DNA of 35,614 bases from an uncultured bacterium (GTDB taxonomy: Bacteria > Cyanobacteriota > Vampirovibrionia > Gastranaerophilales > Gastranaerophilaceae), in the NCBI GenBank assembly GCA_902801985.1, contig CADCKD010000018.1, forward strand, positions 1-35,614, read 5' to 3'. The notes under the pieces were generated by a model that was given only the letters and a program-made list of their open reading frames with translations, was not told the DNA's origin and ran no database searches. The position numbers and the translations under genes are program-made. Below, piece by piece: positions 2,216 through 4,194 of the stretch. How positions within the stretch are numbered: the stretch's first letter is position 1; each line of letters opens with the position of its first letter.

Positions 2216-2224
2216 TGGTACAAT
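2216..2224 (+). promoter_or_regulatory. Extended -10 promoter upstream of the HerA-like gene
   Basis: TGG followed by TACAAT (2219-2224) is a good extended -10, with a predicted start near 2231. An ATG at 2215 overlaps this element and so cannot begin the protein. The start at 2248 lies just downstream, behind GAGGGAG. Confidence 0.5.
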
Positions 2225-2247
2225 CTGTCTATAAAATGAGGGAGTAT

Positions 2248-4194
2248 ATGAAAGTAGTAGAAATTAGAAATAATTTGGTTAAGATAGAGTTTGAAAGTGA
2301 TGAAGGGTTGGTCTTGGGGCGTTTTATAGTGCTTGCATCCGAACAAAATTCTTATGTCGCCCAAATTATAAATATAAAAATTGATGAAATACAAAAACAT
2401 GCCATAGCAAAATTGATGTTTACATTCACAAATGATGGCGTAGTTGATAATTATGACGGCTCAATACCTGATATGAATTCAGAAGCATCTTTGCTCCCTG
2501 CTCAAGAGTTGTTAGACTTACTCCCGGTTGAAACAGCTGTAAAATTTGGGCATTTGGCGCAAGAGGATTCTGTTTTAAGTTTGGATATTTCTATTTTTGA
2601 ACACAATATGACTGTATTTTCTGATCATGATTTTGAAAAGAGAACATTTATATCCAATTGTGTGAATCAGTTGGCAAATATGAATGAAAAAAGTGTTGTA
2701 ATTGATGATGCTAATCTTTTTGAGAATGTAAAAAAATGTGTTCCGGGGCGCGATTTTAAATTACCTTTGAATTCAGAAATGATTGATTATCTGTTTGATA
2801 ATGAATTGACTGATATCGGAACTGATTCAAAAGCTGTTATAAAAGATATTTTTTATGCTGTTCAACAGTATATCGATACTTTAGATAACAAATTTTTGCC
2901 TATTGACAAATTTGTTGATGTAATAGCTTCTCAATATCAACAGAATAATATACCTGAATTGGCATTGTTGAAAAATAAATTATTGAAGTATAAAGATAGC
3001 AATTTGTTTGCTAATAGTGAAGAAGAAATAAATGTTATTGCAAATATGCTTGACACAAATAATACTATTTATGTTGATATCAAGGATTTTTCTGCTCCGT
3101 TGCAAAACAAAATTATCAATATTATTCATAATGAGTTAAATTTGATGAGTGGATATATATATTTCTTTGTGCCTATTCGCGATGATAACTCAGATAAGCC
3201 GTTAATAAGAAAATTTATAAATCACAGTCACATATTTACAACAATATTTGCAAGCCACGCATACAAATACGCTGCAGAATTGAAAGAACATGCAGAAAAT
3301 ATTGTGTTGTATACTCCTCAAACAATTACGCATGAATTTGCTTCATATAATACGTTTTTAAATAAATTAAATCATGATGAATTTGTAATATATGGCAAGT
3401 TGACTCAAGGAATACCGTTTATAGTTGAGTCTGAAGTTGTTGAACCCCAAAATTTTGCGCAGCAGGAAGCTCAAATTATTAAACAAGAACTCGAACAAAA
3501 AAGTAATGTAGAATCATATAGCGAAGTCGAACAAGGACAGTATTCTCAAAAATCAGAAATTCCGGAACAATTTGAGAATAAAACAATTTTAGAACCTGTT
3601 GAAAATATAATGTCTGATGATGAGCTCGGGCAAGAAGAAAATATTGAACAAGATTTAGAAGAAGAACAGATAGTTGAGCAAGAAGACGAGCTTGATGAAG
3701 TGGTTTCAGAGGGGCTTCCGGAAGATGAGGAATATATGGAGCATCCTAATATTTCTGAGATTGCATCAGAACTTCAAGAACCCCTTGAACTTGATTTGCC
3801 TGAAGATGAGTTGTCTGAAGAAGATTTAGTTGAGGATGATTTATCTGAAGAGGATTTGGATTATATTGATGATGCTCTGCCTACTTTAGAAGAACCTGAA
3901 GCACAGGGCGAGGATATAGCAGATATTTCCGAGGACGATTTGTACAGTCAAGATGAAGAAGAATTTGACAAACCTCCTGTTGTACCTATCTATCCGGCAG
4001 AAGGTGTAGAATCAGAAGCTGCAGATGACGCATTCGGATATGCTCAAGGGGATGTTGTTACTCATCCGAGATATGGTCGAGGAGTAATTGAAAAAATAAT
4101 TAAATACGGTAACAAAACTCTTTGTTCTATCAGTTTTGATAATGTTGGCAGAAGGTTATTAGACCCGTCAATTTCTGAATTTGAAAAAGAATAA
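2248..4194 (+). CDS. HAS-barrel, HerA-like protein with decayed P-loop and C-terminal Tudor-like domain
   Basis: No characterised family is recognised for the whole 648-residue protein. Residues 1-60 look like the HAS barrel at the front of HerA-type ATPases. Residues 121-160 occupy the place of the HerA Walker A strand and loop, but the expected GxxGxGKS is replaced by SDHDFEKRTF. TIYVDIKDF (273-281) sits where Walker B would be, and LTQGIPFIV (385-393) resembles the closing barrel strand. Residues about 395-595 are very acidic and low in complexity, probably disordered. The tail (600-640; GDVVTHPRYGRGVIEKI, then SISFDNVGRRLL) resembles the Tudor-like domain that ends UvrD/PcrA helicases. 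The ATG at 2248 is preferred over 2215 and 2236 because GAGGGAG precedes it and the promoter overlaps 2215. Its stop lies one base from the convergent aroH stop. The domain reading is inference. Confidence 0.6.
   Translation: MKVVEIRNNLVKIEFESDEGLVLGRFIVLASEQNSYVAQIINIKIDEIQKHAIAKLMFTFTNDGVVDNYDGSIPDMNSEASLLPAQELLDLLPVETAVKFGHLAQEDSVLSLDISIFEHNMTVFSDHDFEKRTFISNCVNQLANMNEKSVVIDDANLFENVKKCVPGRDFKLPLNSEMIDYLFDNELTDIGTDSKAVIKDIFYAVQQYIDTLDNKFLPIDKFVDVIASQYQQNNIPELALLKNKLLKYKDSNLFANSEEEINVIANMLDTNNTIYVDIKDFSAPLQNKIINIIHNELNLMSGYIYFFVPIRDDNSDKPLIRKFINHSHIFTTIFASHAYKYAAELKEHAENIVLYTPQTITHEFASYNTFLNKLNHDEFVIYGKLTQGIPFIVESEVVEPQNFAQQEAQIIKQELEQKSNVESYSEVEQGQYSQKSEIPEQFENKTILEPVENIMSDDELGQEENIEQDLEEEQIVEQEDELDEVVSEGLPEDEEYMEHPNISEIASELQEPLELDLPEDELSEEDLVEDDLSEEDLDYIDDALPTLEEPEAQGEDIADISEDDLYSQDEEEFDKPPVVPIYPAEGVESEAADDAFGYAQGDVVTHPRYGRGVIEKIIKYGNKTLCSISFDNVGRRLLDPSISEFEKE

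Follow-up and report, generated by a model that had tools for sequence, protein, structure and literature searches.

What would a HerA-type ATPase fold do in a protein that appears to have lost its ATP site and that ends in a Tudor domain of the kind found in UvrD and PcrA? The question is raised by a reading frame, verified as open over 648 codons, at positions 2248-4194 (+ strand) of the 35,614-nucleotide stretch of DNA analysed here (the window), which comes from an uncultured member of the Gastranaerophilales. The encoded protein, referred to below as pseudo-HerA, consists almost certainly of a HAS barrel, a dead HerA core, an acidic linker and a UvrD-type Tudor domain, in that order (Table 1).

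Table 1. Features of the pseudo-HerA locus and their positions in the window
Feature	Residues	Position	Strand	Basis or remark
Putative extended -10-like promoter element, TGGTACAAT (wider TTTTCATGGTACAAT-type element, 2214-2224)		2216..2224	+	Conservation only
Ribosome-binding site GAGGGAG before ATG2248		2238..2244	+	Sequence; GAGGG conserved in relatives
HAS barrel	1-103	2248..2556	+	AlphaFold strands from 2-7 to 97-103; alignment with HerA structures starts at model residue 1
HerA/FtsK RecA-like core, apparently without nucleotide-binding motifs	104-396	2557..3435	+	Profile, AlphaFold and fold search; DUF87 in relatives
Presumed place of the lost Walker A motif, SDHDFEKR (HerA, AATGSGKS)	125-132	2620..2643	+	Profile alignment to 4d2i
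TIYVDIKDF, strand preceding Walker B (HerA TVIRLDGL-like strand)	272-280	3061..3087	+	Predicted strand order; inspection against HerA
Presumed place of the lost Walker B motif, YIYFFVPIRDD	303-313	3154..3186	+	Strand 304-309; acidic pair not conserved in relatives
Long acidic linker	400-598	3445..4041	+	Composition
Linker motif LSEEDLDYIDD	532-542	3841..3873	+	Loose pattern in 59/67 relatives
PPVVPIYPAE before the Tudor domain	576-585	3973..4002	+	No variation at P580 or Y582 among 12 full-length sequences
PcrA/UvrD-type Tudor domain	600-648	4045..4191	+	H606, Y609, F630, R635 and L637 at PcrA RNA-polymerase-binding positions

The start of the gene is likely to be ATG2248, because this codon is preceded by GAGGGAG and the alternative ATG2215, which would add 11 codons, adjoins the conserved extended -10-like element. 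In most relatives within the family, TGnTAnAAT is kept 20-30 nucleotides 5' of the start codon, and members of the genus conserve the TTTTCATGGTACAAT-type element, with no obvious -35 element beside it. Since a general promoter scan of the upstream region gave no excess over shuffled sequence, it is conservation by itself that argues for the element. Farther upstream, the window holds a short, GC-rich, repeat-like stretch at 163-187 (CATTGCGAGCGAAGCGAAGCAATCC), which occurs there in one copy and whose 20-base core was found in no other loci.

The original prediction had described the N-terminal part as a HAS barrel leading into a RecA/HerA core, and the fold evidence bears this out: the outcome that would have refuted it, a predicted structure with no such core, did not occur. 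Residues 1-401 of the window protein alone gave no Pfam match. When an alignment of 42 relatives from the order (A1) was used as a profile, the search reached the structure of the HerA hexamer (4d2i, E = 7.4e-7), with an alignment that spans the Walker A position, and DUF87 was matched by 5 of the 42 members, two of them above the curated threshold of 23.2 bits (L064, 35.2 bits; L066, 38.2 bits). AlphaFold2 modelled residues 1-400 with a pLDDT of 90.7 and a pTM of 0.88, and the predicted structure is a HerA fold: all 50 matches listed by Foldseek for the core model were HerA or HerA-type ATPases, and the VIA-align comparison with 4d2i chain B gave a Z of 26.7 and an rmsd of 4.3 over 378 residues. 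HHalign gave no significant match between the core and four canonical HerA proteins from sister families (probability 1.4), although it placed the lost P-loop consistently. A SepF-like segment, seen in 8 of the 42 members (best E = 1e-3; 3zii), scored below the curated cut-off and lies over an unremarkable alpha-beta region of the HerA core; it was taken as a chance match. Compared with HerA of the HerA-NurA translocase (4d2i, 9x1m and 7wrw), pseudo-HerA has in common the HAS barrel and the RecA-like core over the whole 400 residues, including the final strand segment, but it lacks the Walker A and B motifs and continues into a long acidic linker that leads to a Tudor domain at the C-terminus.

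The sequence at the Walker A position differs from that of HerA in every relative collected. In the profile alignment, HerA LAILAATGSGKSNT was paired with the family consensus llilsdkkeekatl, so that AATGSGKS falls on SDHDFEKR, as had been proposed for the segment SDHDFEKRTF. A regular-expression scan at this position found a P-loop in none of the 42 relatives from the order and in none of the nine from other orders; a single AITSGGKS in L012 lies inside the HAS barrel, not at the Walker A place. No residue of the glycine-rich loop is conserved across the 42 relatives of the order, and K131 of the window protein occupies the position of the Walker A lysine. Relatives in family f9 hold P-loop fragments, namely GTCVAGKQ (G226), GNALGVKR (G216) and GPNFLLKY (G245), and these look like the result of P-loop erosion. 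In a non-exhaustive sample of one genome per species, no relative with both a strict P-loop and a Tudor domain was found.

For Walker B, the original assignment did not hold. TIYVDIKDF had been read as its relic, but AlphaFold predicts the order strand 273-277, helix 283-298 and strand 304-309, which puts the Walker B strand about 30 residues further on, at residues ~303-309 (YIYFFVP), where the acidic pair is missing; this placement comes from predicted strand order and inspection, not from a residue-level structural alignment. These comparisons make it highly probable that the ATP site has been lost from the pseudo-HerA core. Elsewhere in the same genome, a 1832-residue open frame (G000:C26:14717-18023, L193) carries an intact HerA-type P-loop, GTSGSGKT, together with a DUF87 match.

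The gene itself is well maintained. It is present in 189 of 192 genomes of the Gastranaerophilales, usually as a single copy, and in 40 of 40 genomes of the genus, and the dN/dS of the core is 0.03-0.09 (six pairs, some with saturated dS), indicating strong purifying selection. The term "decayed" in the original prediction thus fits the ATPase site and not the gene. Since almost all members of this large order of gut dwellers, whose genomes are small, carry the gene, pseudo-HerA probably does something basic. Elsewhere in the class and the phylum, the A1 profile found no match at E = 1e-3, and the plasmid and phage collections searched contained no relatives. Within the class, a search for the Tudor family showed that families f9, f14 and f15 encode a second Tudor protein besides UvrD, and that most f8 and f10-f13 genomes encode a single one. 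The non-UvrD proteins inspected begin with a HerA-like part, which a linker joins to a Tudor domain at the C-terminus. The same layout occurs in three more families of the class, in most cases beside rarA and/or ileS. The alignment of the distant cores with A1 covers their full length (hhalign 94.5%, E = 8e-8), and the predicted structure of one distant relative (pLDDT 79.5) again had HerA as its best match (Z 21.2). Because relatives of the same layout in other orders align end to end, the family is, judged by sequence, older than the order or was transferred.

The SIR2-HerA, DUF4297-HerA and TdpAB defence complexes have the HerA fold in common with pseudo-HerA; they combine an active HerA with an adjacent effector gene, whereas pseudo-HerA is encoded by a core gene of its order. 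Neither the window protein nor an f9 relative matched the PADLOC defence HMMs, and with no relatives in the plasmid and phage collections searched, a defence gene was rejected. Where motors of the AAA+ and RecA types have dead copies, these often prove to be regulators. No description of a HerA without its ATP site fused to a Tudor domain was found in the open-access literature.

The region between the core and the Tudor domain has 74 Asp or Glu against 5 Lys or Arg in 206 residues, in agreement with the roughly 200-residue acidic stretch predicted originally. Across 67 relatives, the linker varies from 123 to 613 residues (median 238), with a median of 32% Asp and Glu. Two short elements recur within it, a motif that can be generalised as the LTxxDLDFID type and VPVYPAE-like residues that stand before the Tudor domain in the relatives, and both may be additional docking motifs.

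The C-terminus is, by sequence, a Tudor domain of the UvrD/PcrA type, as predicted. PF21196 was matched by 33 of 33 relatives (E <= 1; best E = 5.5e-9), and the best solved structures found by sequence search were UvrD/PcrA Tudor domains; the Tudor domain of the window protein alone scored 20.4 bits, below the Pfam cut-off of 23.9 bits. A weak PF02559 match points to the RNA-polymerase-binding domains of Mfd (RID) and CarD, whose Tudor-like fold it would share, but the sequence is nearer to PcrA/UvrD (best E of 5.5e-9 against 3.7e-5). As in PcrA and UvrD (5dma, 6yi2 and 9dqs), the domain is small, forms the very C-terminus after a flexible linker and keeps the RNA-polymerase-binding face; here, however, it is borne by a dead HerA core, and there by an SF1 helicase. 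In Geobacillus PcrA, each of the substitutions H681A, W684A, K712A and L714A severely reduces RNA-polymerase binding (Sanders et al., PMC5397179). These residues, in the PcrA sequence confirmed from the PDB, correspond to H606, Y609, R635 and L637 of pseudo-HerA, the W-to-Y and K-to-R replacements being conservative, not identical. Across the order, the pseudo-HerA Tudor domain has His at the first position in 32/32 sequences, an aromatic residue or His (Y/F/H) at the second in 32/32, Arg at the third in 30/32 (Ile in two) and Leu at the fourth in 29/32, the rest having Val or Ile; L070 lies outside the fitted Tudor pattern but reads RRLL. This pattern gives reasonable grounds for believing that the pseudo-HerA Tudor domain uses the UvrD-type face.

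In contrast, the Tudor domain of UvrD in the same order has partly lost that face. It reads GKKAMDA instead of GKKLLDP (G000:C11:49089-49232 and tails L270-L279) and is changed in all 16 genomes sampled: the residue at L714 is Ala in 14, Ser in one and Thr in one, and the residue at W684 is aromatic in only four. In the UvrD of other orders, Phe and Leu occupy the W684 and L714 positions in 17 of 17 fitted sequences. Because L714 is replaced by Ala, Ser or Thr and L714A is disruptive in PcrA, UvrD of this order naturally carries the substitution that impaired binding by PcrA in the laboratory. In family f9, where UvrD and pseudo-HerA coexist, both proteins keep the Tudor binding face. The three members of the order without a pseudo-HerA match (G085, G196 and G201) also carry the changed UvrD; assembly gaps may account for the missing gene in these genomes. 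The Tudor sequences within each group are related and do not represent independent events, and one early loss in the order could explain all of the UvrD L714 changes.

The partner of the Tudor domain might be expected to carry the helicase interaction motif, [VIL]DxxTGE[VIL][VILT], which was mapped in Bacillus (PMC8318588). The strict motif was not found in the beta2/SI1 region of RpoB. A [TS]GE loop in RpoB beta1 is present in every tested genome with pseudo-HerA, but it is also present in families f10-f12, which lack that protein, and it therefore does not discriminate. RpoB was dropped as a proven partner for these two reasons. A scan of the whole genome for the motif pattern gave 5 matches, against 2 in the reversed control, with none in RpoB. 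A tether to RNA polymerase, as suggested in the original prediction, is plausible from the binding face that the Tudor domain keeps; that RNA polymerase is the main partner of the Tudor domain is possible but rather doubtful. In five of five f8 genomes searched (G215, G230, G235, G244 and G252), a second, more diverged RpoB-like match was observed (PF04561, 57-66 bits).

The reading that we tentatively prefer is that pseudo-HerA is an adaptor, in which a HerA platform that does not hydrolyse ATP has assumed the Tudor-mediated docking of UvrD. Residues 1-400 would keep the HerA fold, possibly still as a ring, and, because they would be unable to bind ATP in the manner of HerA, would act as a docking platform and not as a motor. 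The flexible, strongly acidic linker of 200-400 residues would hold the UvrD-type Tudor domain, which would grip a partner in transcription or repair, either the beta subunit of RNA polymerase or UvrB, by its helicase interaction motif, a beta-hairpin. In the Gastranaerophilales, the docking role would have moved to pseudo-HerA from UvrD. The fold, the loss of the motifs, the conservation, the Tudor family and the contrast between the two Tudor faces are observed; we infer the partner, the platform role, the takeover and a part in transcription-repair or transcription-replication conflicts. The full form of the proposal, in which the dead HerA replaced UvrD order-wide in reading the helicase interaction motif and transcription or repair partners recruit the adaptor in place of UvrD, is one that we advance with less confidence than the adaptor itself; the change in the UvrD Tudor domain may instead reflect neutral drift or a switch of partner. 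If true, Tudor docking would have passed, across a whole order, from a working motor to one that is dead. The reciprocal change in UvrD offers a ready natural experiment on the purpose of the UvrD Tudor contact.

Several other explanations have to be weighed against the adaptor. UvrB, and not RNA polymerase, might be the main partner of the Tudor domain, in which case pseudo-HerA would be a scaffold for repair, bringing in or holding back UvrD and UvrB at damage. UvrB of the same genome (G000:C21, L257) carries IDNVSGEIV, a near match to the motif with Ser for Thr, and that of G060 carries IDNVTGEIL, while RpoB lacks the strict motif, and in Bacillus both UvrB and RNA polymerase bind PcrA through this same motif (PMC8318588). 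The motif is nevertheless imperfect in f2 and f14, where its Asp is replaced by Asn, and it is absent from f9 UvrB despite the presence of pseudo-HerA, and we regard this alternative as unlikely. The core might also act as a sensor, with an altered pocket that still binds a nucleotide or another small ligand, as would suit the confidently predicted fold, the lysine at position 131 and the Gly and Lys retained by f9 relatives (GTCVAGKQ and GPNFLLKY). Given that the glycine-rich loop is lost in 42 of 42 relatives of the order, with no loop residue conserved, a sensor of this kind is quite improbable. Virtually no probability attaches to a decaying pseudogene or an accidental resemblance to ATPases, for which the missing Pfam match of the window core could be cited: the occurrence in nearly all genomes, with frames open throughout and dN/dS well below 1, rules out decay, and the agreement on HerA of profile, Pfam (in the relatives) and predicted structure rules out chance.

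The gene neighbourhoods bear on both the adaptor and a further alternative. In the main clade, the gene follows nadD and yqeK and is succeeded by aroH, fmt and def in variable orientation; these neighbours give no pointer to repair and count against the adaptor. No nuclease was recognised among the neighbours inspected, and no NurA lies beside pseudo-HerA in these neighbourhoods, a further difference from the HerA-NurA translocase. Conversely, neighbours in other lineages encode ATPases of DNA maintenance (RarA in several, YifB/ComM in f2-f4), which favours the adaptor. In f9 and f15 (G265), rarA and/or ileS lie beside the gene, and rarA is again a neighbour, differently oriented, in G126 from the same family as the window. 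These two independent rarA placements do no more than hint at replication-fork maintenance, and would suit a replication-fork or recombination scaffold acting with RarA and YifB, in which a ring of dead HerA would surround DNA or dock onto it and the Tudor domain would bind DNA or a fork protein. The YifB/ComM gene, with a 158-residue frame upstream, in f2-f4, and the weak binding of DNA by the UvrD Tudor domain (PMC7585439), count in the same direction. Since the rarA linkage is missing from the main clade and from most loci of the same family, and since gene neighbourhood is weak evidence, such a scaffold has only a small share of the probability. The frame of about 158 residues, which belongs to no Pfam family, lies directly upstream of the gene at L061:3059-3535, L062:1015-1488, L064:2850-3374, L065:4973-5440 and L067:4719-5255.
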